The notes under the pieces: model-generated
Told to the model about the DNA's origin: nothing
Seen by the model: only the letters and a program-made list of their open reading frames with translations
Databases searched by the model: none
Made by a program: the position numbers and the translations under genes
Source: Polytrichum commune
Lineage: Eukaryota; Streptophyta; Polytrichopsida; Polytrichales; Polytrichaceae
Assembly (NCBI GenBank): GCA_950295325.1
Contig: OX485804.1
Coordinates: 39,618,001-39,682,000, forward strand
DNA length: 64,000 bases
Direction of reading: 5' to 3'
Shown here: positions 6,132-39,921 of the stretch, one piece after another
Layout of the letters: each line of letters starts with the position of its first letter
Position numbering within the stretch: the stretch's first letter is position 1

Positions 6132-6140
6132 GCCGGTGAA
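6132..6140. repeat. Left target-site duplication of the MULE
   Basis: GCCGGTGAA here is repeated exactly at 17428-17436; identity extends one more base, GCCGGTGAAG. The length of 8-10 bp suits Mutator elements, which usually make about 9-bp duplications. It lies next to the left inverted end. Confidence 0.75.
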
Positions 6141-6230
6141 GAGGGAAGCTATCTTATGAGCGATGAGCAGTGAGCGGTGAGCGGTGAGCAGTAACACATG
6201 AGCAATGAGCAGTAACATATAAGCACAAGT
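6140..6230 (+). repeat. Left terminal inverted repeat and subterminal repeats
   Basis: After the outer bases comes GCTATCTTATGA, then iterated 8-12 bp motifs of the type GAGCAGTGAGCGGTGAG and CAGTAACACATGAGCAATGA. Clustered subterminal motifs are typical transposase-binding regions of DNA transposons. The related right end is 17388-17427. Confidence 0.65.
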
Positions 6231-6280
6231 GAAAGGGCCCTATTTCCATGGATCATTTAGAACACTTTCAATCCATTGTT

Positions 6281-6430
6281 GATTTTTATTATAATAATTC
6301 AAACCAATACATGTCATTTATTGACATCCTTATACATGTAGCTACAACTAGCACTTGTACAACCACTCACATTCTACAACACCAGCAAATTCAAGTAGGT
6401 GCATAACCTCATTATACATATATGTCGGTG
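6281..6430. repeat. Duplicate of the transposase 3' end
   Basis: This segment closely matches 6856-7005, including the bases that encode the last residues of the transposase and the flank TTTTTATTATAATAATYCAAACCA. It is a local direct duplication about 575 bp apart. The SINE lies between the two copies. Confidence 0.8.
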
Positions 6431-6544
6431 CCATAATTGTGAGCCACTCAAACTGCTCACGGGTTGAATAAAGGCCCAGAATCTACAAAAGAAAGAAAAT
6501 TAGATATTAGAAATAATGAATATGTAGGTAGCTACTAGGTTTTG

Positions 6545-6745
6545 AGACATCCGCCTGTGGATGCGAGTTGTGTAAGAGACTGGTATTAGGTCTGGATCAA
6601 CCCGGGTTCGAATCCAGTTGGTTACATTGACTGGTGCTATCCCAAATTGAGCTAGTGATAAAGCAAGAATAATCTATAGGCGGATACCAAGAAGACGTTA
6701 CTACGCGGATGTGCGTAGAATCTTCTTAATTATTTTTTATTTTTA
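6545..6745 (+). mobile_element. tRNA-derived SINE
   Basis: A perfect RNA polymerase III B box, GGTTCGAATCC, lies at 6605-6615. An A-box-like stretch (TGCGAGTTGTGTAAGAG) sits upstream at tRNA spacing, and the 3' end is T/A-rich. The body has no open frame. The edges are approximate. It is not a functional tRNA gene because no acceptor stem or anticodon arm is evident. Confidence 0.65.
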
Positions 6746-6938
6746 GAAACGTGTTATTATTTATCCGTGTGAATCAATCAAACCACACATGGTTATGTCG
6801 CAGTCTAAATAAAAATGAAGTTACTGAATCATTTGAAATACTTTCAATCCACTACTAATTTTTATTATAATAATCCAAACCAAAACATGTTATTTATTGA
6901 CATTCAAATATATGTTGCTTAATAGAACACTTGCAATA

Positions 6939-9900
6939 CTACTCACATTCTACAATACTAGCAAGTTCAAGTAGTCGCATGACCTCATTATAGGTATATG
7001 TAGGTGCATGAATGAACTTGTCACTCTCGTAATCCACCTTGCACAAAAATCTAAACACATAATAAAGATGTTTACAATACACCCATTTTCTTTTCTTTCC
7101 CAATGCATGAGAGGACATTTTCGTGAAATCTGGACATGTGCAATGCGGGATATCACCAATTGTGACATGATAGGTGATATCCTGCTTGGAGACAATGTTG
7201 ATTATCACTCCAAAGCCCGGATATGGAATGGCAGTGACCCCAACCACATAGTAACCTTCCATGAGTCCGGCGCTTTCCCATTTGTTTTTGTGATCCGCTA
7301 GAGGTGCTATTGGATTACGACGCATTGTCTTCCCAAATCTGAATGTAAGGTGGGCGTCTGGGTTTGGTGGTATAGAAAAATGCGAGCGAGGGATGGGAAG
7401 AGTTGCGATTGTTGAAAGCCTACGACGAGGAGACAATGCCTTCCTCTACTGTAGTTGAAATCCAGCATCTTCAAGTGCCAAAACCTCCTCTCTCGATAGA
7501 TTTGTACCTATCTTCACTGGCCACGTGTTGGGTACTATAGGCCAATCCAACACATATTTCTTCTTACTGCCACTCACACAACGTTTGATGTCGTCAGGAC
7601 AAAACCAAAATTCATACTTCACATTGTTGGGAGAGCGAAATTCCTTCCTGAGCCCTTTGTATGTTGGAGCAGGTGTGCCATGTTTCCCAGTCCCGACTTT
7701 GGCATTGCACATAGTCCCTGTAATGGCCTGTAGTGCCCAACAACGTTTGGCTGAGTTGGGTGGCAATCTTGCAATGTGCCACTTAGAAGCAAGACAATCA
7801 GTCTCTAACACGGATGTAATATGAGCCACACCATGAATTGCAGAACTCAACGATTCCTTTATGCGTTGACAAGTTGCTCGGGTGTTGGGACGAGGAATGG
7901 AATAGTTCACTTTGTCGGGTCGATGAGAGTCACAATCAGCACCCGGTGGTAGGTTGAGTTTGTGTTCGGTGGAACCAAAGAGTTCTGACCCTTCCAATGC
8001 ACAATCTCTAGTGTTGACGTGTTTTGCCCATGGATAAGACTTCATGGCATCAGCCAACATTTTTGAATCTCCACACCTGGCAGCTGCTTTGAGTTTCAAG
8101 GAGGCCGAATTAGGACCTTTACCATCAGACCCCCCTTTCAACCATGTCCGGTAATTTGCAATTTGCATGAAGGCACAGATCATGTCGTCCACTGTAGCTT
8201 CATATAAACAAGTCATATTGTTGCCGGACTGTTGGAGCCATTTGTTGTGTACAGTCTCTGCAAGGTTGAATGTTGGCATTTCCGCACGCTCTTCTATTGT
8301 CATATCCTATGAACAACACACAAATACAAGGACAAGATAAACATAAGATAGATTATATATCTAGGTTTGGGTCGTTCGACCCAAAATGGCTGTCACGTTT
8401 GGGTCGAACAACCCAAACTGTTTGTTGTTTGTTGTGTACAGTCTCTACAAGGTTGCATGTTGGCATTCCCGCACGCTCTTCTATTGTCATATCCTATGAA
8501 TAACACAGAAAGACAAAGATAAGAAAAACATAAGATATACTACATTGAGTAATGAAGTTTGATATGTACTTACAAGTAGCATATGGCCACCCCATTGTCT
8601 GTAACGAAAGTGCCAAAATCCCAACCACTCTGAAAGGCCAATGATGGCTTCTTCGGAGGCAGCTCCAGATGACAACCACCAAGAACGAATCACATGGTAT
8701 TTGGTCTCAGCGTCGTCCATTGTTTTCGCGTCTTTGTAATCCTTGCATATTTGTTTGTGTTGAAATTGCAAGGATGGTTTGATATACTTTTGGATCACCT
8801 TATCCAAGCTTGCAGACCAATGGAAAAGACATGTACGCTCACGTGCAACCATAGGTAGACTTGGATCACCATCCCCATAAAATAGCCCTCACCGCATTCC
8901 AATTAGCTTGAGTACTATCGGCCATAAACCCTTTGAAGTTTACGTTTGGTACACCATTTTCTGCCATGACAGCATTCAAATTTTCCCGAAAGAGAATTTG
9001 TGCTGCACCATCTTCATATTGCATGTCACAACACGCAATAGTCAACACTTTACAGTATCGACTGTCGTACACACGTCCAGTCCTTCAAACGTTTGACATG
9101 GTCAAACATAATCCATGAATTCTCCATATCCCCACCGACTTGCATCCTCTTCACAAGCTCCACACCACTACCTGGAAGGTCTACAAACATTTTAAAAACA
9201 AACACTTTGTCCTTTGACTGCCCTGGGAACCGACTATCATGGACGAATTTGAAAGCAGAGTGGTCTTTGAGCGCCATAATACTATCCATAGTTTCCATTC
9301 CATTACGCAAAAAACGCTTTGATCCAGATACAAAGTTACGACAATTTGGAGACGCAAGAGTGCTGAATTTGTCCATGACGACCTCTAGGGTTGAACCAAC
9401 CAAGTGATGGCCTTCGACATTTGCGGGAGATTTGAGAAGGTAATCGGCCAAGAATTGTTTGCTCGCCGCCATAAATATGGCTGAATTTTTTGCTGTGGGT
9501 GTTTTCAATACTTCATTTGCAACGCATTGGTATGCCATGTCCAATGATTCACGGCATGTGCCATTGGCCACAGGGTGATCATGTACACCAAGATGAATGC
9601 AAGCCCTGGACATTCCAACGGATGTGGAGTGGATGTATATGATTCGAACATTACACAAAGCAATGCACACAGGTGTGGAACGACATACCTTATACTCGAC
9701 AGTGGACTTAGTAGGGGGAACAACACCCATAGCAAATGGGATAGGAGTTGAACCGGCCCATTCAGTGTTGTTCCGGAGGCCCCCATTGCAATTCATGTAA
9801 TCACAGTAGTCATTATGACATTGGAGATGACCAGCACAAGTAGAGCGCCGGAAGGACAGTCCAAAGTCATTTTGGATATTCGTGGTTTTGGTGGTGCACC

Positions 9901-10696
9901 AAGGGTGACCGTCGCACATCTTGTCTATGCCGTCCATTGAGCGACCATATGTACTTGGAGCTTTGACTGCCACAGGAGGCAAGAGAAACAAAACATCACC
10001 ATTAAAAGAAGATGGTAAGTACTTGACTTCACGAACATCTATATTGTCAAAATCAATGGATGCAAGATCGGACTTTGATCTTTTTCTTGACTTTGTCAGC
10101 TTCAAGGCATCAACCATAGTCAACCCTGTAGATGAAGGTGAAGGGTGTAGTGGAGGACGTTGAGAAGGTGAGATTTGGAGAACCACTTTCTTGTACATAA
10201 GACCGCAAGGGGATTTGGCTACATGTATAGGAAGTTGGGAAGGAATAGAATGAACACTTCTAAATAGAAATGGCGATGTGTTTGAAATATCAACAGATGC
10301 ACAAATGTCATCTTCTGAATCTGATAGCACAAACACACTATCATCAAGGGGTTCCACCTTAACATGTGCGATAGAGGGAATTTGAACTGTGGATGTACCT
10401 GATTCGTTTGTCAAAATGACAGTTGAAGCTTGCATCTGAGACTCAGAAAGTCCTATCACCCTATATGAACCAGGTCCTAAGATCCACATAAAACCAACAT
10501 CAGTTCTATTTTTTGGAACCAAAATCGTTTCATACACCTCTCCATCTGCAGAGTACATCTCATGCTCTAAATACATGGTTCCTATTTGGAGGTTGAATCT
10601 CAAACTAAGTAAATCCTCTGAAACACTCACATGACCATCATCTTGGAGTGGCAAGATGAAGGGAACAAAAGATCCATGAGCTCTAATGGTAGTCAT
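6939..10696 (-). pseudogene. Mutator-like (MULE) transposase with SWIM zinc finger, broken
   Basis: The ATG is at 10696. The N-terminal part ends in a Cys/His-rich region (CAGHLQCHNDYCDYMNC, then CIHLGVHDHPV) of the zinc-binding type seen before MULE catalytic domains. The catalytic part contains CCDMQ, FKGFMADSTQANWNAVR and a Glu-bearing GAASEEA...GFWHFRYRQWGG segment, fitting the MULE DDE core. After an intron (donor GTAAGT at 8573, acceptor before 8306) the C-terminal exon ends in a SWIM motif: HCTCPDF ... YCKHLYYV, about residues 85-110 of the last open block. Lesions are a frameshift near 9070, another near 8880 and an in-frame TAG at 7446-7448. A TATA-like CTATACAAAAG lies on the minus strand at 10762-10752. 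The product would cut and move the element; this copy cannot make it whole. Confidence 0.88.
8242..8545. repeat. Tandem duplication across the transposase intron acceptor
   Basis: 8242-8350 and 8428-8545 are near-identical (for example GCACGCTCTTCTATTGTCAT in both) and lie about 185 bp apart. Each copy contains the same splice acceptor and the start of the second exon. Between them lie two GGGTCG-type hairpins, the first a perfect one at 8366-8385. The upstream-most acceptor on the minus strand (8493) would give a short, quickly terminated product. Confidence 0.85.
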
Positions 10697-11218
10697 AGAA
10701 AATCAAAAGAACATATGAACAACACATCACAAAAATATGGGGTGAATGTTGCTTTTGTATAGAGTTGTATGAGGAAATGAATGGAAATGAAAACGTGTGA
10801 TACAATAATGGATGGAGATGAAAGCGTGTGATACATAGTATCTAATAATACAGAAGTGGAGATAACACAATAATAGTCAGAGAATATTTACGAGCAGGAT
10901 ATACACAAAATGGCGTCAAAAACTAAAAGTATTGGTAGAAATTTAAAATATATATGTGTGGACTGACGTAGATGTAGAAAGAATTAAAATTGGTTGGAAA
11001 AATAAATTATTGATCATTATGAATAGAACAAAGTAGGTGTCAGAAAATTTTGGCGGATATAACAAAAATAAACACATAATGACAAACGCGTCGAAATATC
11101 TCGTTCATTGAACGCCAATTACAACATGTGATCGTAATATACGCCGGAATTTGTGAGATAGACACATTGGAAGAATAAATGATAGTACCTGATAGAAAAC
11201 ATATCATAAACACCAACG
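10697..11218. promoter_or_regulatory. Divergent promoter region inside the MULE
   Basis: This 522-bp gap lies between the start codons of the minus-strand transposase and the plus-strand small ORF. It is AT-rich. A TATA-like CTATACAAAAG (minus, 10762-10752) precedes the transposase by about 60 bases. A shared bidirectional control region is inferred from the arrangement only. Confidence 0.45.
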
Positions 11219-11500
11219 ATGGTGGACGATGTAGAGAGAACACCCGTGAGGCCGAAGAGAAGACGTAGGAAAATTTTGTATTTCACTTCCGAGAAAGAGA
11301 GGTTCAGACTGAGTGTAGAAAAGAAGAATGCAAATAAGGAAGGGAAAAGAAATTTGTTGAGTATGGTAGAAGAAACTGTGAAGACAGTGGATTTTGATGC
11401 GATGGAAGATGATGAAAGTGCAAAGAGCAAAGAAGATGTAAACGATCGTATATCAGAATCCGAATTGAAGACGGGTTCAAAGAAGACGACAAACAAAAAG
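11219..11500 (+). CDS. Small basic/acidic ORF or first exon, unknown function
   Basis: The ATG at 11219 opens 94 codons ending exactly at a consensus donor (AAAAAG then GTAAGT at 11501), so this looks like a first coding exon in phase 0. The protein has a strong nuclear-localisation-like cluster RPKRRRRK near residues 11-18, then a charged Lys/Glu/Asp/Ser-rich tail with no recognised fold. It faces away from the transposase. No convincing second exon was found: the 64-bp repeat array follows directly, and the methyltransferase-like gene appears to have its own TATA box at 12827. It may be an accessory nuclear protein of the transposon, a decayed 5' part of a longer gene, or an unexpressed frame. 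Confidence 0.4.
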
Positions 11501-11544
11501 GTAAGTCAGTTCAACGTTCACATAATTTGATAGTGCATAAGTTG

Positions 11545-12202
11545 TAAGTTAGGACGGAGAACCTTGTACGTTCATTCACATGTCATGTAGTAGCAATTTA
11601 TAGAGGTTATAAATTGGAAAGGAGAAACCCTATACATTAATGCACAGCAGCACATGGTATATAACAGAAATTTAGGAAGGCTAGAAGTCAGGAGGAGAAC
11701 GCACAGGGTTTATAATAGCAACTTAGGAGGCGAGAAGTTGGGAGGTAAAACCCTGTACGGTAACGCACAGGGTTTATAAGAAAAATTTAGGGAGGCCAAA
11801 AGTTGGGAGCTAAAACCTTGTGCGTTAACGCACAGGGTTTGTAATAACAACTTAGGAAGGCAAAAAGTTGGGAGGAGAAACCCTGTGCGTTAACGCAGAG
11901 GGTTTGTAAGAGCAACTTAGGAGGCAAAAAGTTGGGAGGAGAAACCCTCTGCGTTAACGCAGAGGGTTTGTAAGAGCAACTTAGGAGGTAAAAAGTTGGA
12001 AGGAGAAATCCTGTACATTAACGCAGAGGATTTATAAGCGCAACTTAGGAAGCAAAAAATTGGGAGGAGAAACCCTGTGCGTTAACGCACATGGTTTGTA
12101 AGAGCAACTTAGGAAGCAAAAAATTGGGAGGAGAAACCCTGTGCGTTAACGCACAGGGTTTGTAAGCGCAACTTAGGAAGGCCAAAAGTTGGGAGGTAAA
12201 AC
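11545..12202. repeat. 64-bp minisatellite, each unit centred on a palindrome
   Basis: About ten units of 64-65 bp; the first ones are degenerate and the last five are close copies. Each unit carries a palindrome around CCTGTGCGTTAACGCACAGG with flanking AAA/TTT. The clear copies start near 11748, 11813, 11878, 11942, 12006, 12070 and 12134. The spacer is of the type GTAAGAGCAACTTAGGAGG. Some units show matched changes in both arms (11942-11969; 12006-12033). The array lies between the small basic ORF and the methyltransferase-like gene. Confidence 0.92.
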
Positions 12203-12647
12203 GACTAGGACAGCCTAAAAGTAAAAAAAAAATCTATTGTATGAATTTAAATCGATGTTCAGAACGTAGGAGCAAAAAACTATTCAAAACGGGGTTAGAA
12301 TGTAAGAAATGAGAAATATGTCTACTCAAATATTCATGCAATACGTTATAGGAGTTAGAAAAAGACACAAAATAGCATAATTTTTGTTTTGACCCGAAAC
12401 CCAAAATCTATGAGGTGGCCCAAAACAAGGAAATAGATAGAAGAATGAGAAAATAAAATGATTTCGAACCAAAACAAAATATATAAAAAATTGTACCTAC
12501 AGAGATTTAGATAATATAGCATGTTTTTGTTTTTGTTTTTACCCCATAAGCATTTTTTTCCAGATTTTACAAGTTTTGGCAAATCTACCAATTCCAGACT
12601 AAAAAAAATAAAAATAAAGTTTTTTTTCAAATTCATGTCTCGGCCAT

Positions 12648-12768
12648 GTGCGTTAACACACAGGGTCTATGCGCTAACGCACAGGCCTTATGCGCTAACG
12701 CACAGTGGCCTCAAAGTTGCCAGCGCAGACCTTGTGCGTTAACGCACAGGGTCTACGCTGGCAACTTT
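12648..12768. repeat. Palindrome cluster including a 56-bp near-perfect inverted repeat
   Basis: Several GTGCGTTAACGCAC- and GCGCTAACGCAC-type palindromes are packed here. The largest, 12713-12768, has arms beginning AAAGTTGCCAGCG and ending CGCTGGCAACTTT around the same CTTGTGCGTTAACGCACAGG core used in the minisatellite. It ends about 58 bp upstream of a TATA box, so it could be an operator-like or hairpin element. Confidence 0.9.
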
Positions 12769-12826
12769 CTAGTGGCTATGCGGAGCCACGAAGAGCCACG
12801 CTAAATATGGCTGCAGATACGAGTAG

Positions 12827-12834
12827 TATAAATC
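12827..12834 (+). promoter_or_regulatory. TATA box of the ParB-methyltransferase-like gene
   Basis: TATAAATC sits between the 56-bp palindrome and a pyrimidine-rich leader. A possible 5'-UTR intron starts at 12927 (TACAAG then GTTTGT). The coding start is at 13441. Confidence 0.5.
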
Positions 12835-13002
12835 GCCACACCCCCAAAGCATTCAGTCTTTTTTTTCTCATTTGTCAGACCTGAGCTCGTCGCTGCAAGC
12901 TCTCTCATCTACAGGTGCAGTACAAGGTTTGTTTGCACTTTCTTGATGACTGGGTAATTGCGCATAATCAGGCGTAAATTGCTGACAGTTTGTGAGCATG
13001 GT

Positions 13003-13157
13003 TTGGGTCGCTCGATCCAAACTGCCTGGATGGTTTGGGTCGAGCGACCCAAATCACGCGCAGAAAGTTTGGGTCGTTCGACCCAAACTGGCTGTAGGCG
13101 GTTTGGGTCGCTCGATCGAAACCGCGTGGACAGTTTGGGTCGTTCGATCCAAACTTC
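13003..13157. repeat. Five-unit array of GGGTCG hairpins
   Basis: Five palindromes of the form GTTTGGGTCGNTCGAYCCAAAC recur every 32-36 bp, separated by 9-12 bp of differing sequence. The closing base pair alternates G-C and A-T between units, so the pairing is kept. The array lies in the leader or 5' intron of the methyltransferase-like gene. The same hairpin occurs at 8366-8418 and at 33886-33920. Confidence 0.88.
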
Positions 13158-13192
13158 ACGCCTAACTTTGGTAGACCTGTAGTTGGACACAC

Positions 13193-13220
13193 AGACCCTG
13201 TGCGTTATCGCACAGGGTCT
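13193..13220. repeat. Isolated hairpin of the CCTGTGCG family
   Basis: Arms AGACCCTGTGCG and CGCACAGGGTCT flank TTAT. This is a stray copy of the minisatellite palindrome, downstream of the GGGTCG array and upstream of the coding start. Confidence 0.85.
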
Positions 13221-13440
13221 GCCCTTGTAGTATTGGGGTGAGCGGCCACCCTATTCGTACAATATTTAAAGGTGCAAATGGCAGTGTCTAGAATAATTTT
13301 TGTCATTCTTCCCTGTGTTCGTGATATTCTGTTGTTATTGTTGTTGCTATTGCTGTTGCTTTTGTAATGTTATTGCTAATGTGTTGCTACTGGTTTTGAA
13401 ATATTTATGAAACTTATTTCATTTGTTTTATGACTAATCA

Positions 13441-16400
13441 ATGGATTTGGAGAGAACGACTCCTATTTCTACTGATGATGATTCCACAATGCATTCAACT
13501 CAAGATCGTCCATCTCAACAAGTTCATCATCATCAGGACATATCGTCAAATCTTCATAATAAGAAAAAGAAAAAAATAAATGAATCCCTCGTTGATTTTG
13601 ATTCGGATTAAGATAATGATGGTGACAATAAAACTTATAAAGAGAAAGTGTGGGAGCTTACGAACAAACAAAAGGTGATTTCCACTTCCACAATTTCCTC
13701 AATCCGTGCTGGACTTAATGCTCGCTTGCATGTACCCTTATGTCGCTTGGTTGCTATGCCGATTGTGTATCCTGCTTTGAAGGGTGACATTACTAAATTG
13801 GAGGCTGATTTTTTCAATGGTTATCGTGATGGTGACCGTGTGTTTTATATATCGGCCACCGATTCTAAGGGAAATTTTCAATTCGTGGATGATGAGGTTC
13901 GCGCATCTTGGAGCCCAAATTGGGCTCAAGCCAATGCCCTGTTTGAATCTCAATTGGATACAGATTTGTCATTGACGTCATACAAGAACAAGATGTTTTT
14001 TATATGGGATGGAAATCACAGATTTTCTGCATGGAAAAATTATATTGACCGCGTATATACCGAAGATTATGAACGTCATGTCTTTGTGGATTCTATCATT
14101 TTGGCGCCCGAGCCTGACGACATTCCAAGTTTGTTGACTACTATGCATGACATCAACAAGTAATGTTCTTACCTTTTTTTTTACACTTATTTCTAGTTTA
14201 TATTTTGTTTTCCAAATTATATCATTATGAATCTAATCAATTTAATGTTTTTTTAGGTCAACCGAAAATTCTCACGTATCCACCAATTTGGTGCATACTT
14301 TATATCGGATGTAAAGTATTGGCACCATGCCTTTGACTTCCTTCAGAAAGCAACTGGATCCAAAGAGTTATAAACGATGTGAGGAGAAGTCTGTCGAAAC
14401 TTGGTATTCTTTGACATGACCAATTTTTTTGGATTACATGTACAGTGTAAGTTCTTCTACCATTGCTAATATGTGCCTTATGTTTATTCATCTTCATTTT
14501 ACATTACAGCTATATGTACTTATAAATATTGACTTTTGTTTGATTTTTCAGCAAGAACTTGCTGAGGCTAGCGATATTGCTCTCAACCAGTACAATGAAA
14601 CTCATCCTCTTGAACGGACATCAGACGGAGTTTCAAAAGCAATGTCCGCAGCTGTCAACAAAAAACGTGCAATGTTATCTTCTAGTTTTACGAAACAACT
14701 AGCGATTGCCGACATCAACTTTACCTCTGCTTTCCTTGAAGAAGTTAAGCACCATTGGGGTTCATTTTCGGTGCCTGAAATGCTACAAGAGAAACTTCAT
14801 CGTGTTGCTGTCAATAATGTGGATGCAGAAGTCAAAGTTGGATGGCTTAAGCTTTGGAATGACAATAGATTTGACAAAGATGCATTGCATTTCCCGAAAT
14901 CTCCCCTCTCTGATTCTGCACTTGATGATTGGTTATCAAAGTTTACATATTGGGCACAGTTGGAAAAAAAGGCTATCGAAGAGCTTCAAAGTATTCTTTC
15001 ATCTCCTCTTCAGTTGCCTGCAGATGTGCCTACTCTCTCCGAGTATATCCAAACCTGGAAGTTTGCGGCTTTCAATTCAATATTCTATCGTGAATTCCAA
15101 AGCGGAAAAGTTAAAAAACACAACGGTTGGGATGAGCAACCTAATATTGATCTTGCTATGAAACGTGTATTATACATGTACAACCTAATCTTATTATTTT
15201 TTTGATTTTTTTTATTCCATTTGTGAAATTATCATGGAATATTTGACTTACAATATTTTTGTGTGTAGGTATTTTCGATATGTTTTGATTCCACATAAAT
15301 GCGTTATAGGGGAACCTCGTTTTTTTCCAAATTGGCGTGACACTGGTGCAGGAGATTCATGCATCTTCACTACTGAGATTTGTTTGGATTGGTCGCTCCC
15401 ACACTATGAGGATTGTGGTTGGTATCTTGATTGTCCTAAGGATACATGTCCGTCAAGTGAGAAGACAATCCGTCAGATAAATGATGCTAAAAATGTGGAT
15501 CCTCGTGATACTGTAATTTTGCAAGCACAAATTGTGCAGCTTAAACTTAGAGAGCCAAAACCAAAAGAGACAAAACGTCGTAAGAGGAAACATGTTCCTC
15601 AAACCAAAATACAAGATCATTCAGAAATTTCACAACATGAAGAATTGCTTGTTCTTTCCAATGATTTGGATAAGAATCCACTTGGAGGCGAAAGTTCAAA
15701 GTCTGGATGTGATGTATTGGAATTTTATTACTCCAGCACCTATGACGCTATTCATCGTGCGCCAACGGATATTTTGAGAAAAGAGTTATTCATACTGAAG
15801 AACTTTCTCACGCTCTCGTTTGCTCGATCTACTGTTGTCAAGAACAAGTCTGAAGGGGTGGATGTAGGCCCTCCTGAGTAGATCTAATGGCGGGAATTTA
15901 TTGAAAACGTAAGTATTATTGTTTTGGTATTTTCTCTAATGTTCTTACTTTCATTTGGGTTTTATTTTGTGTCTTATATTGTGATATGTTGTGGTATTTC
16001 AGTTCAATGACAATCGCGAATTTCATGTCATGGGAAGTCCGACTCCCTTTGCCGTTGACTTGGTTTTTCTCCAATTTCCCGACGGTCTTGACTTCAACCT
16101 CTCCAATAGACCTGCTGAAATTCCTCTTTGGAATAAATATGACAAGAACTGGATGGTTGCAACAATGTGCTTGTGCAAGTCCATCTTGTCTGATGATGGC
16201 GTCCTCATAGTATTGTCTGCTATCGATATGCAAACCAAGAAGGTTTTGAATTCAACCTTATACAACGGCAACATGAAAGTTCTTAGGACTTTTATTTGCT
16301 TCAATTCGTACATGGTGTTCAAGGATCCGGAGTCTCCAACCTACACCCTAAGTATAACAGATCACAATTGTTTCTATTTAATTATTTTGGTGTTATTTGC

Positions 16401-17257
16401 ATTGTATATAGTTTTAACACAATTTACATTTTTATGTAGACTCCGGCATTTATGGCTCATGTCTTGGTAAGGGATTTTACTACCATAAAATCCACGAGAC
16501 AACCAAACTCCACTTTTTTTGGCACTGGATTGAAAAGCAAAAACTTGCTTTTCAATTTTGTGGATAAAAAAAACATGCTTCTTCAAAAATCGGGAAGACC
16601 TTGGAGGGGGCCATATCAAAAATCGCCGCGTTTTTTTCAAGATCTTATTGAATTGTTTACACCATCGAATGGACGCGTTGTTGATTTGACATGTTCCACT
16701 GGAGCTTCTATCCTAGCAATACGCGCATGTGGCAGACATCTTCTTACATTTGAGGGTGATAATGACATGTTTGAGCACATATTGAAACTGTTTTTGGAAA
16801 ACGTTTTGAAAGAGGGGTCATCTAAGGAGAATATACAAGATCTCACAAAAGAAGATGATGACCTCTCGGATGAGAAGATGCTTGAATTTGAGTGTGAGTA
16901 AGTTTTAATACAATAATTTTTTATTCAATTCATTCGTTTCATTCAATTCATTGGTTCATTTTTTTTCTTCACATTATTTACATGTTTCATCGATTTGATT
17001 TCAGGAATACGATTGGAAAGAGGACATGTCTCCCGTTTTGGGCACATAGACAATTCCTACGAAGTCCAAGCCGTAGCCCGCGTCTCCCATCATATGCCGA
17101 GAACGTTGCAATTGCAATGTTGAATCTCGAAGATTCGGATCCAAATGAAGAATCTTGCTATAGTTCCAAAATCAATTCGCAATGCAAAGGTGCTCGAATA
17201 TATATAGATGACGAGGCAAAAGATAGTTTCATGTCTAGTGCTACTACTGATGAATAA
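13441..17257 (+). pseudogene. ParB-like plus beta-class DNA methyltransferase-like protein, seven exons, broken
   Basis: Exons read 13441-14159, 14257-14446, 14552-15177, 15269-15908, 16003-16351, 16440-16897 and 17005-17257; all joins are GT-AG and keep phase (about 1,078 codons). Exon 1 contains WDGNHRFSAW (D at about residue 190) followed by a hydrophobic strand, as in ParB/sulfiredoxin-like domains. Exons 5-6 resemble a permuted N4/N6-amino-methyltransferase in order: VDLVFLQFPDG in the motif IV place, ILSDDGVLIVLS, then RFFQDLIELFTPSNG, VVDLTCSTGAS and GRHLLTFEGD for the cofactor side. The catalytic D/N-PP-Y tetrapeptide is not visible. The middle (exons 3-4) is helical and unknown. Lesions: stops at 13609, 14312, 14417, 15879 and 15885, and a one-base frameshift near 16557. 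It lies within the MULE, so it is probable transposon cargo. Function is not proven; DNA binding or an anti-silencing role is possible. Confidence 0.72.
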
Positions 17258-17387
17258 ATTTTTGGACTTCATGTTGTTTATCCTTCTCAACCCTCTTATT
17301 ACTAAACCCTAAAATCATCATTTTAAAGGCCACAATTCCACGGTTATAGGATATTGGTGGCCCTATTACCAAAATTTTCATCTTCCT

Positions 17388-17427
17388 CACTGCTCATAAG
17401 TTACCGTTCATAAGATAGCACTCTCCT
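17388..17427 (-). repeat. Right terminal inverted repeat of the MULE
   Basis: Read inward on the minus strand it gives AGGAGAGT, then GCTATCTTATGA, then a TGAGCAGTGAG subterminal motif, as at the left end. Confidence 0.65.
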
Positions 17428-17436
17428 GCCGGTGAA
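17428..17436. repeat. Right target-site duplication of the MULE
   Basis: GCCGGTGAA, an exact copy of 6132-6140, immediately outside the right inverted end. Confidence 0.75.
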
Positions 17437-17841
17437 GGCCGTGTCATTCGGCCTTGGGTGGGTTTGGCGGCCATACCGCCTCACCCATATAAGCCTCTAG
17501 GACTTCTGGCAGGGCCCCTACCCCACCGTCAAGAAACCTTTTGTCTCTCTACCAAGAATTGGGGCCAAATAGACATTTTCCCTAAGCTGTTGGGGCTGGA
17601 AGCCCCCAACAGCTTCAGAACACCATAACTTTATTGTATGATGTATGATGTTTACATACAAACACTCCATCGTCATTTACATTTCACGTAGATGCCAATA
17701 GACTCATCATTTGCCCCATTCGAGTAAGTATTGAGGAAGTTATACCTGTTCAAACCTTGGCAATCCCGAGAGCCACTCCCAGGCCACTACTGTACGAGGG
17801 CGTTGTCCCGGGACAACGCCCCACTCAAATTGTCATATCCC
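17437..17841. other. Intergenic DNA with two hairpins
   Basis: No gene. An inverted repeat with arms AAGCTGTTGGGG and CCCCAACAGCTT lies at 17584-17615. A perfect 22-bp palindrome with half-site GGCGTTGTCCC lies at 17799-17820. Confidence 0.7.
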
Positions 17842-20409: not shown

Positions 20410-21670
20410 AATGGTTGCTCACATTTGTTTTATGCTTAGAATTTATTTAGATTTGCATTTGACATCATTGTGAAACATCAAAAAGTATAAAAAAAAAATG
20501 AGGTTTGGTGTGGGATTATGTTTAGGCCTTAGGCTTATGCAGTGTGGTTAATTAAAGGATTAGCGGCATTAGGGGGTTGGTTGAATTAAGTTGAGAGTGT
20601 GTGTGTTAAGTAAGGGGAAGGGCCTTGGGTTTAATTGTTTGAATTAAGGCCTTCCCGTGTTGGTTTAAGGGTAGAGGGTTTAGTGGATAGGCTTGGGTTT
20701 TTCATTCAACAAGGTTTATGGGCCTCAGGATATAGTGTGTGTCTTCTTCTTTTTCGGCACTGGGAGAGCAAGCGGAGGAGCTGGTAGAATGGCGGAGCGC
20801 AAGCTCCGAGGCTGGATTGAGGAGCTAAGCTCAAAGGCTGGATTGGGTCAGCTAAGCTCGAAGTTGGTTTGAGGCAGCTAATCTCGAAGGCTGGATTGGG
20901 TCAGCTAAGCTCAAAGCTGGTTTGAGGCAGCTAAGCTCGAAGGCTGGATTGGGTCAGCTAAGCTCGAAGGCTGGTTTGAGGAGCTAAGCTCGAAGCTGGT
21001 TTGAGGCAGCTAAGCTCAAAGGCTGGATTGGGTCAGCTAAGCTCAAAGGCTGGTTTGAGGCATCTAAGCTCGAAGGCTGGATTGGGTCAGCTAAGCTTGA
21101 AGCTGGATTGAGGAGCTAAGCTCGACGGCTGGATTGAGGCAGCTAAGCTCGAAGGCTGGATTGGGTCAGCTAAGCTCGAAGCTGGATTGAGGAAGCTAAG
21201 CTCGAAGCTGGATTGAGGCGACTAAGCTCGAAGCTGGAGAAGCCCTTTTGACGGGCAGTGATGGGCGTAGCCCCGAGCCCAACAGTATAGGATCCCGAAA
21301 CCACATTAATTACTGAAGTTGAAGCAAAGGGGGGTAGTGGTAGTATTCACCTTATATTACAATAGAGGCTAGGTGGGTAGGCTTAATATAAGGGATTAGT
21401 CTGGGTAATTAGTTAATTAGTAAGTGAAGAAACCACACAATGCTAGGTGGTGGCATTAAGTGTTCATTAGGTGTGTGGGTTTTGCGAGGGGATGTATTAC
21501 GGGGGTGATAATAGGGAAGAGCGTTCTTCAACGCTTGTATCCTCGCCATGGAATAATTGGGGTGCCAAAATTGATGTGAGATGCAATGGAGGTTAATGAC
21601 ATTGGGAAGATTTAGCTAGGCTAGCATGAATGTGATCCCCATGCCCTCACCCGGACTACGACGCATAAGG
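20410..21670. other. Non-LINE segment inserted in the LINE
   Basis: LINE protein similarity stops after YYEPKM and resumes near 21675. The intervening 1.26 kb has no coding similarity and contains the minisatellite. I could not identify terminal repeats, so its nature is open. Confidence 0.5.
20796..21240. repeat. About 26-bp minisatellite
   Basis: About 17 units of the type GGCTGGATTGRGTCAGCTAA plus GCTCRAA, with small length variants (GAGGAGCTAAGCTC). It lies within the segment that splits the LINE. Confidence 0.9.
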
Positions 21671-32285: not shown

Positions 32286-32955
32286 GGGCCAGTTCACATG
32301 TGATCCCAAGTCCCATTCATGTTACCAAGTCCCAACATGGATAAAAGTCCCAACTTTTGAGCCTCAAGAAGCCATTAAAATATGGTTAATTATCATCAAA
32401 ATCATATCTAATATTTGTGGGACTTGTGTTGAGAGTTGGGTCTAGCTTTGTGCTTGACCCAACTCAACACAAAAGTCCCAAGCCTCGTCTTCAAAAAGTG
32501 TTGCCATGTAGGCATCCCGACTTGGGACTTAGGACTTGGGACCCCATGTGAAGTGGTAAGTCCCAACTATTCCATGCTCTCAACGGCTGAGATTGCACAT
32601 ATTGACTTGGGACTTAGGACTTGGGACCCCATGTGAAGTGGTAAGTCCCAACTTTTCCATGCTCTCAACAGCTGAGATTGCACAGATCGACTTAGGACTT
32701 GGGACCCATGCGAAGTGGTAAGTCCAAACTTCCATGCTCTCAACGGCTGAGATTGCACATATTGACTTAGGACTTGGGACCCATGCGAAGTGGTAAGTCC
32801 CAACTTTCATGCTCTCAACGGCTGAGATTGCACATATTGACTTAGGACTTGGGACCCATGCGAAGTGGTAAGTCCCAACTTCCATGCTCTCAACAACTCA
32901 GATTGCGCACATTGACTTGGGACTTAAGACTTGAGAAACCCGTGTGAACCGGCCC
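32286..32955. mobile_element. PIF/Harbinger-like MITE with internal tandem repeats
   Basis: The ends are GGGCCAGTTCACATG and, inverted, GGGCCGGTTCACACG, flanked by the direct repeat TAA (32283-32285, 32956-32958). The family usually duplicates a 3-bp TNA/TTA target. It has no coding potential. Its end sequence matches the element at 33696-34079, so both probably use one transposase. Confidence 0.85.
32519..32930. repeat. Five-unit 74-84 bp tandem repeat inside the MITE
   Basis: Each unit runs from GACTTAGGACTTGGGACCC to TCAACGGCTGAGATTGCACA; two units of about 84 bp are followed by three of about 75 bp. It gives an apparent repetitive open frame on the minus strand that is not a gene. Confidence 0.9.
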
Positions 32956-33335: not shown

Positions 33336-34092
33336 AACTACACTAAATAGTCCTATTAGTGTGGATGGAAAACTAGCATGGAACCAATTAATGTGGGTCA
33401 CACTAATTTTCTAGTCGAGGTGGAATCAGCTTGGTTTCAATATCCTGCGTCTACCCCCAAGTCTTCATGAAGAATTTCAACCAACACATTGAATATTAGT
33501 TATAGGACAAAAGTAGCACATGATAAAAAGAATCACCCAGGCTAATTATTATTTTATATAATTACTATGGTCCACACTAATTGTCTTCTAGAGATTTAGC
33601 GTGGGTTGAAAGTTACTGTGGCCCACATTAATACTCATTATGAAATTAGCATGGGCTCTAGAAATTATGGTGGTCCATCGTAACATGATTATTTAGGGCC
33701 GGTTCACACTATGGCCAAACTTCGAGAGGAGAAGCGTTTGGACCAATGAAAATGCAGAAATGTCCAAAGTCCGTCCTCTCGGCCTTCACACTAGAGGCCG
33801 AAGTCCAAAGGACATCGCCTCCAAAAGAGCCTCCGTGGCAACACTTTTAGGAAGTTATGACGCCAAGAGTTGGGCCTCTCGAGCAAAGTTTGGGTCGAGA
33901 AAAATGCTCGACCCAAACTTCCGTCGAGAGGCCGAACTTTTTTTTCATTCAAATATTCAAAATCTGACAGTGGATTATTTTAAAATACTTTTTCAACCCA
34001 AAGGCTTCTCCTCTCGACATAGTTTGGTCCATAAAAGTGACGCTTCTCCTCTCGACTTGGCCATAGTGTGAACCGGCCCTTAGTGTACTTTG
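33336..34092. mobile_element. MITE-like repeat, copy 2, interrupted by another MITE
   Basis: Homologous to 4801-5195. Once the inner element is set aside, its ends ACTACACTAAATAGT and ATTATTTAGTGTACT are inverted repeats. The inner insertion lies inside its right end. Confidence 0.65.
33696..34079. mobile_element. 384-bp PIF/Harbinger-like MITE
   Basis: Terminal inverted repeats GGGCCGGTTCACACTATGGC at the left and the exact inverse at the right, flanked by TTA duplications (33693-33695, 34080-34082). Shorter GAGAGGAGAAGCG inverted blocks follow inside. An internal hairpin of the GTTTGGGTCG family lies at 33886-33920. Confidence 0.92.
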
Positions 34093-38690: not shown

Positions 38691-39200
38691 AAGGTACTTA
38701 TGGTAGGTGTGTCACCTAAATGCTGGATGAATCCATATGTATGTTAGTTTATTGCAAAGGACACAACACTCTTGTAGTCTCGGTGAGTCATCAAATTCAA
38801 AACATTTGTGGATTGCTCGATTTCGCCATCAAAATTGCTCGATTTCAAAATTACAAGTTTGGTCTTGGACCCCCATGCGAAACCCAAACTAAGGTACTTA
38901 CGGTAGGTTTGTCGCCTAGATCCCGGGGTGCAAGCATGTACATGACAATTCATTGCAAGGACACAACGACACTTTCGCATCCTCTATGAATCATCAAATT
39001 CAAAATGTTTGTGAATTGCTCGATTTCGCCATTAGCATTGCTCGATTTGGGAGTTACAAGTTTGGTCTTGGACCCCGATGCGAAACCCGAACTAAGGTAC
39101 TTGCGGTAGGTTTGTCGCCTAGATCTTGGGGTTCAAACATGTACATGACGATTCATTGCAAGGACACACTACACTTTCGGAGCCTCGGTGGATCATCGAA
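38691..39200. repeat. Tandem repeat of about 200 bp, 2.5 copies
   Basis: AAGGTACTTAYGGTAGGT starts copies at 38691, 38891 and 39094. Each contains TGCTCGATTTCGCCAT and ACAAGTTTGGTCTTGGACC. The third copy is partial. Confidence 0.9.
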
Positions 39201-39921
39201 CTCATAACCCTTCATGGTTGCCAACGAACAAGCATACCTTTAGACCACGTAATTGGGGCCAACCCCTTTGTGGTACATGTGTTAGTAGTTATAAGTACTC
39301 TCTCCTTACTTGGTTGCCCCCGCTTTGCCCACTTTGTACAAACCGTACACCACAAAGGAAGCAAGTGTTGGAATGTTTGTGTCCCGTGTTCTCCTCAAAT
39401 TCGGTGTTCTTGCTCTCCGCCTCAATTTAGTGTGCCATGTTGCCGTTGAGTTTGTCGTGGAATCTCTCGGGTTGATCCCCGGACCTTACAATTATGCGCC
39501 AATGAGCTTTGGACATGCCCCTTCCTAGCCCTAGAAGAAAAACTTGTCCATCACAAACCATATGTTGCAACTTGGCCATAGCGACTTCATGGTGAGAAAA
39601 TGCATGAATAAATCATTGTGGTTGTTAATTGCGAGTTTTTGGTTGCAGTCTCTAGACAATTGCGAACCAAACCCCTCTAGTTGACCACCATAATGATTTG
39701 TGTATACAATTTCTCGCCATGAGTTGCAATGGCCAAGTTGCAATGCATGGTAGTAATGGACAAGTTTTTCTTCTATTGTAGGTGTCCATCCTCATGGAAG
39801 GGTTTTTGGGTTGGATTTAGCCCAAATGCAAGGACCTTCGTTTGCAAAAGGACCGCTTCCATCCTACCAAACAAAGAGCTCCCACAAATTGATTGACTTA
39901 TAAGATTTGCAATCCTTATGT
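39201..39921. other. Intergenic DNA
   Basis: Overlapping frames of 70-107 codons at 39126-39743 on both strands have no recognisable motif. I do not call a gene. Confidence 0.45.

Follow-up and report, generated by a model that had tools for sequence, protein, structure and literature searches.

What does a moss transposon gain from a second gene that, in part, resembles a DNA methyltransferase? The question arose from a 64,000-nucleotide stretch of the Polytrichum commune genome (assembly GCA_950295325.1, contig OX485804.1, positions 39,618,001 to 39,682,000), referred to here as the window, in which positions 6141-17426 constitute a single DNA transposon with inverted ends and a flanking exact 10-bp direct repeat. 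The element carries a transposase gene on the minus strand and, divergently on the plus strand, a seven-exon accessory gene, with arrays of palindromic repeats between the two (Table 1). Drawing on other copies and relatives of this element in the assembly (408 Mb in 64 contigs), we propose that it encodes its own sequence-recognition system and thereby keeps itself free of host silencing. Both the binding and the anti-silencing activity are inferred, and we regard the proposal as evenly poised between right and wrong. The observation that carries it is that the array follows the accessory gene, not the transposase, from one subfamily to the next.

In the window-type family, the 20-bp core of the palindrome, CCTGTGCGTTAACGCACAGG, was found at 490 genome sites, against none for the reversed control. 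Among the 50 sites listed, all on contig C1 and up to 21.2 Mb, 45 were positioned 5' of exon 3 of the accessory gene, at a distance of no more than 10 kb. The array varied in length among six copies, from 8 counted units in the window to 48 in copy G. Symmetry was analysed on 116 units from six copies, which had been selected for CGTTAA or TTAACG, so that the innermost positions are biased. Complementarity about the dyad was 0.65-1.00 up to 14 nt on each side, fell to 0.05-0.43, and recovered to 0.66-0.95 at 22-27 nt.

The sister elements L029/L030 and L031 allowed gene, array and transposase to be compared separately. Their transposase is 89% identical to that of copy B; the left end of L029 is the same as in the window type and the right ends of L030 and L031 match (the left end of L031 lay outside the fetched DNA). 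The sister accessory gene, by contrast with this transposase, is about 30% identical to the window type, with 24-46% over the aligned pieces, and the sister array repeats a 105-bp unit whose palindrome, ATAAGGGTGGCCGTTAACGGCCACCCTTAT, is perfect in some of the units. Its 20-bp core, GGTGGCCGTTAACGGCCACC, occurred at 70 sites (control, 0), and 38 of the 50 listed were 5' of a sister gene within 10 kb. In a third subfamily (L034 and L036), 233-bp units containing GGTGCCGTTAACGGCACC precede the gene and, according to the gene model made here, a second GGTGCCGTTAACGGCACC array (oriented 6169-7924) lies in the large intron after exon 4. This motif was found at 259 sites, with none for the control; the 50 sites listed fall into five clusters on C1, three of which, with 31 sites, surround a listed gene copy (counted by eye). 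L035 and L038 have arrays of their own, with 138-bp units containing GAGGGTGCCGGCAGCGGCACCCTC and 64-bp units containing GGGGTATTGGCGGCACCGCCAATACCCC, respectively. The transposases beside L037 and L038 are 62-83% identical and the gene pieces 28-39%. Family-specific motif arrays in the non-coding DNA of the encoding element are thus the pattern, with L037, L032 and L033 as exceptions. If a protein and the site it binds evolve as a pair, gene and array should change together while the transposase stays, as they do here, and the simplest reading of these comparisons is that the two may travel as a single cassette, made up of a DNA-binding protein and its target, that elements can exchange.

These results are consistent with a mechanism in which the accessory protein, composed of a DGNHR N-terminal module and a degenerate methyltransferase fold, would bind the palindromic arrays between the divergent genes. 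Binding is predicted to involve a symmetric oligomer, probably a dimer or higher, and in at least one subfamily the putative targets would also lie inside the accessory gene's own intron. Occupancy of the arrays may keep the promoter region of the element free of silencing, so that the transposase stays expressed. This would be the job of VANC in the VANDAL transposons of Arabidopsis, here done by a different protein; the comparison, already made in the preliminary description, gains support from the palindrome arrays, which that description had not noticed and which are subfamily-specific and sit in non-coding parts of the element. To our knowledge, sequence-specific escape of a transposon from silencing has been worked out in detail only for VANDALs.

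Several observations weigh against this mechanism. Some listed core sites had no listed gene nearby: 5 of 50 for the window type, 12 of 50 for the sister type and 19 of 50 for the third type (the last counted by eye). No array was found in the 8 kb read for L037, perfect palindromes of at least 14 bp are absent from the repeats of L032 and L033, and the L038 motif is palindromic apart from a mismatch at its centre. Gene and array could be swapped as a block in which the array is just a hitch-hiker, apparent recombination between copies makes the estimate of selection given below less clean, and ParB homology of the N-terminal part fails profile tests.

The principal rival concerns the C-terminal half of the protein. 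If the protein were an active enzyme, it would methylate adenine (or N4-cytosine) in its own arrays, and the mark rather than occupancy would protect or activate the element. The window protein had no match in Pfam, and its methyltransferase-like region on its own reached DpnA only at an E-value of 0.82. With relatives, the N6_N4_Mtase model PF01555 was matched by three of the four subfamily sequences tried (E-values 1.9e-4, 4.1e-4 and 8.3e-4, all short of the curated cut-off), the fourth, L030, giving no match to this model. The S4 region matched PHROG 3008 (DNA methyltransferase) at 2.8e-9, and the family profile matched the DpnA-type structures PDB 5hek and 5hfj at 3.3e-4 and 3.9e-4 over the motif I half. 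In the alignment, motif IV precedes motif I, the permuted order of the beta class. Motif I, (A/V/C)(D/N)(L/M)T(A/C)(S/G)TG, and the next acidic residue are retained in most of the copies aligned, which favours an enzyme that marks DNA. So do the profile matches, the sequence GTTAAC common to the arrays of three subfamilies, and a TTAA that is invariant in the 116 units, though these were chosen by motifs containing it. Such marking has also been proposed for similar algal proteins (PMC12477816, cited here, like PMC5735166 and PMC12704722, from excerpts of the paper).

The catalytic site tells a different story. Amino-methyltransferases have the catalytic motif [DNS]PP[YFW]. In all five subfamilies aligned, the DPPY site is replaced (LQFPDG, ADYPDG, AQYPDG, AEYPDG and ADIPEG), so the moss-element proteins share with DpnA-type beta-class adenine methyltransferases the motif I half that the family profile matched, but not DPPY. 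The array units of L035 and L038, moreover, lack GTTAAC. The likeliest reading of the C-terminal half is a putative beta-class amino-methyltransferase fold that is catalytically degenerate and perhaps binds S-adenosylmethionine. With DPPY lost, the protein is more likely to read or occupy DNA than to mark it, and we consider a marking enzyme unlikely, although it is the strongest competitor to recognition by occupancy.

A second possibility is that the arrays bind the transposase or a transposition complex and that the accessory gene encodes a co-factor of mobility, and here the structure and distribution of the element are informative. The preliminary description had proposed one Mutator transposon with inverted ends and a 9-10 bp direct repeat outside them, enclosing both a MULE transposase and the seven-exon gene. 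The single element was borne out, with a repeat of exactly 10 bp. The window ends read GAGGGAAGCTATCTTATGA... on the left and, inverted, ...TCATAAGATAGCACTCTCC on the right, and positions 6148-6209 are 88.7% identical over 62 nt to the inverted right end of copies A, B and C. The first comparison was with six other copies, A, B, C, D, F and G. Exact 10-bp repeats flank GAGGGAAGC...GCACTCCCC ends in A, B, C, D and F and in the sister element L029/L030, and the duplicated sequence is different in each of A, B, C, D and F; the left end of G lay outside the fetched DNA. The combination of terminal inverted repeats with a 9-11 bp duplication, the criterion for a Mutator element, is therefore present in the window, in A, B, C, D and F, and in L029/L030. 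Both genes are inside the element, but the MULE label was not recovered by profile: the Pfam model PF10551, with 142 matches genome-wide, had none inside the window and none in the open transposase exons of copy B. SWIM-like zinc finger matches were obtained in the window pieces and the copy B exons (E-values 0.018 and 0.077), both below the cut-off; SWIM zinc fingers are frequent in the Mutator superfamily. The transposase reading frame is broken in the window, and in copies A and B open frames of 742 and 455 codons are present.

Table 1. Features of the transposon in the window (positions are those of the whole stretch).
Feature	Position	Strand	Details
Left target-site duplication, TGCCGGTGAA	6131-6140		Exact 10-bp copy at 17427-17436
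Left terminal inverted repeat, TGAGC-rich	6141-6209	+	Ends GAGGGAAGC...GCACTC(C/T)CC
Transposase, two exons	6939-10696	-	About 10696-8560 and 8306-6939; broken in the window; SWIM-like zinc finger near the C-terminus
Two TTTGGGTCG palindrome units	8365-8420		In the transposase intron
Conserved open reading frame	11219-11500	+	Basic RPKRRRRK stretch; ends in a GTAAGT donor
Tandem array	11698-12196		64-bp unit centred on palindrome AACCCTGTGCGTTAACGCACAGGGTT; 7.8 copies
Second group of AACCCTGTGCGTTAACGCACAGGGTT palindrome	12642-12768		
Array of TTTGGGTCGNNCGACCCAAA-type palindromes	13000-13155		Unit of about 34 bp
Accessory gene, exon 1	13441-14159	+	DGNHR (ParB-like motif) region
Accessory gene, exon 2	14257-14446	+	
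Accessory gene, exon 3	14552-15177	+	
Accessory gene, exon 4	15269-15908	+	
Accessory gene, exon 5	16003-16347	+	Methyltransferase-like motif IV region (VDLVFLQFPDG); 5' splice site lost in the window copy
Accessory gene, exon 6	16440-16897	+	Methyltransferase-like motif I region (VVDLTCSTGAS...)
Accessory gene, exon 7 and stop	17005-17257	+	
Right terminal inverted repeat	17387-17426	-	
Right target-site duplication, TGCCGGTGAA	17427-17436		

A genome search with the copy B transposase protein detected at least 62 loci at 89-100% identity, a lower bound, since the best 62 of 2,795 first-look candidates were scored. The list of window-type genes, obtained by searching with exon 3 of copy A, comprised 130 places including the window (best 150 of 1,266 candidates scored). 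A same-ended transposase that never occurs with the gene was the outcome that the preliminary description had named as counting against it, and it did not occur. Instead, 58 of the 62 transposase loci have an accessory gene on the opposite strand, 5' of the transposase and within 25 kb, of the window type in 51 cases and of the sister type in 7; for the remaining 4, no accessory gene was present within 25 kb in the gene lists used. That the two genes nearly always occur together, with the arrays between them, would suit a mobility co-factor. However, elements with an 89% identical transposase and like ends have a different array, and we judge this role improbable.

An equally improbable alternative is that the arrays act without a protein, whether by forming hairpins, by giving rise to small RNAs or as structural DNA repeats, and that gene and array merely share a block. 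Perfect palindromes can extrude or form hairpins, and tandem repeats are often sources of small RNAs. Among the 116 units, however, the arms vary independently at most positions, and covariation exceeded expectation only at distances of 12-13 and some of 17-27. This scarcity of arm covariation favours protein half-sites over an RNA hairpin, and the hairpin reading of the palindrome was rejected on these grounds. The three motifs searched are also rare outside the family, with no sites for the reversed controls.

Evidence that the accessory gene matters to the element came from its sequence conservation. In the window the gene is decayed, with five in-frame stops and the exon 5 donor lost. It is free of in-frame stops in copies A, B and D (in B the exon 6 acceptor is altered, and in D there is a one-base length difference at the very end), and has stops or frame breaks in C, F and G. 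Sixteen more gene regions included one, L013, that like copy A has neither a stop nor a frame break; L014 and L018 are stop-free but have frame breaks, and the other 13 have stops. Between A and D, the ratio of non-synonymous to synonymous divergence (dN/dS) was 0.12, from 124 synonymous and 64 non-synonymous changes; by region it was 0.09 for the DGNHR part, 0.13 for the middle and 0.17 for the methyltransferase part. Synonymous divergence (dS) was uneven along the gene (0.52, 0.20 and 0.06 for the same regions), which suggests recombination between copies. The gene is kept by purifying selection during the multiplication of the elements. A host or bacterial gene captured by the element but serving no function there, similar to those of Pack-MULEs, would account for the many broken copies, the window copy included, but is disfavoured to the point of being very improbable by the dN/dS value, by the splice sites and frames retained in several copies, and by the presence of a homologous gene in several deep subfamilies.

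The open reading frame at 11219-11500, with its GTAAGT donor, is present in the window, in copies A, B, C, D and F, and in L030, and was not found in G and L031 by the pattern used. The coding part of the accessory gene may start with this exon, in which case the arrays would sit in intron 1. Elsewhere, two equal-scoring copies of the gene lie in opposite orientation about 40 kb apart on contig C7 (12032772-12036158 and 12076298-12079684), perhaps an inverted duplication.

The preliminary description had read the protein as a ParB-like region joined to a methyltransferase-like one. The second part holds with profiles of relatives, and not with the window protein taken alone; for the first, the motif stands and the profile similarity does not. 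The N-terminal region contains a conserved K(M/I)F..WDGNHR, with WDGNHR in 9 of 11 aligned sequences, WDENHR in L036 and WDGNHC in L038. DGNHR resembles the (D)G.(R/H)R motifs of ParB and sulfiredoxin. No match to the region was found in Pfam, and neither NCBIfam nor a PDB profile search returned a ParB; a PHROG 1033 ParB-like match over the DGNHR motif appeared in L037 only, and weakly (E-value 0.45). Alignment with hhalign against five ParB sequences scored no better than shuffled columns (90 of 200 shuffles reached the score), and comparisons with ParB, with and without the insert before DGNHR, were both without support. A ParB_N search of three plasmid records yielded one bacterial ParB, for reference use only. 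An AlphaFold model of the window DGNHR region, made from the single sequence without relatives, was unusable (pLDDT 31.7). The ParB assignment is thus a reading at the level of a motif, and should be treated as putative.

Known systems place the element in context. VANC proteins bind short motifs and induce loss of methylation there, the motif differing between subfamilies along with the protein, and the motifs are amplified as tandem repeats in the introns of VANC21 and VANB21 and upstream of VANA21 (Hosaka et al. 2017, PMC5735166). The excerpts describe the same layout as in the moss: a transposon with terminal inverted repeats and an accessory gene beside the transposase gene, and rapidly changing tandem motif repeats in non-coding parts and introns, with a subfamily motif that changes with the accessory protein. 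The moss palindrome is about 28 bp in length, in contrast to the 9-base YAGTATTAY of VANDAL. The methyltransferase-like region also sets the moss-element protein apart from VANC, and the likeness drawn here is one of layout.

In Ectocarpus Sola1-1 and in transposons of green and red algae, the excerpted report describes accessory proteins that combine a ParB-like region with an N6/N4 methyltransferase (PMC12477816). The Sola1-1 protein has 1104 amino acids, compared to 1076 in copy A, and is likewise encoded on the strand opposite to the transposase; the algal systems differ in belonging to other superfamilies (Sola, and in red algae giant EnSpm elements with accessory genes), a comparison made by description. 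The excerpts make no mention of palindrome arrays in the algal elements. ParB-fold proteins fused to an N6_N4 methyltransferase are also reported in phages and plasmids, frequently on mobile elements (PMC12704722, excerpts). These share with the moss protein the pair of domain names and the association with mobile elements, and differ in being prokaryotic and in that the moss N-terminal region has no ParB score. On the excerpted algal account, then, a ParB-methyltransferase architecture in a transposon has already been reported and is not new. Our search of the open-access literature found no report of this architecture in Mutator-like elements, and none of subfamily-specific palindrome arrays.

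We therefore suggest, with confidence a little short of even, that the moss elements represent a second, independently built system of sequence-specific self-recognition and anti-silencing. It would pair a ParB/methyltransferase-like protein with a parS-like palindrome array, exchanged as a cassette among elements with the same transposase, so that several orthogonal pairs would coexist in one genome; the L045 type, another abundant family of elements, with a DGQH protein and TTTGGGTCGNNCGACCCAAA arrays, may follow the same principle. One genome offers numerous copies and a number of subfamilies, and the predicted pairs of protein and target differ chiefly in gene and palindrome, which makes specificity testable by swapping. 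If correct, the model would also hint at what the ParB-methyltransferase proteins of algal transposons do, and would illustrate how an enzyme fold of bacterial type that acts on DNA can turn into one that reads it.

The strict TTTGGGTCGNNCGACCCAAA motif was found at 9,731 genome sites, with none for the control, and the window element carries it too (8365-8420 and 13000-13155). Among the first 100 sites listed, three clusters lie away from the window-type family: L045 (C1:614500-624400), L046 and L047. Each contains a gene whose product is a different protein, bearing a DGQH motif, and L046 and L047 are 85-83% identical to L045. Part of the L045 protein had at least 150 matches (best 150 of 899 candidates), listed at 94-100% identity and mostly stop-free, and the L045 family looks to have been recently active.

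CCCTAAA telomere repeats open contig C1 and are missing from the terminal stretch of C3 that was read. A K-box search of the assembly had one match, which would suit a green-lineage plant outside the flowering plants. Outside the element, TTTGGGTCG and CGACCCAAA form inverted arms with an 11-nt spacer at 33889-33917 of the window. Further tandem arrays are located at 20801-21238, 32525-32925 and 38751-39208, with units of 53/79, 75 and 203 bp, respectively.

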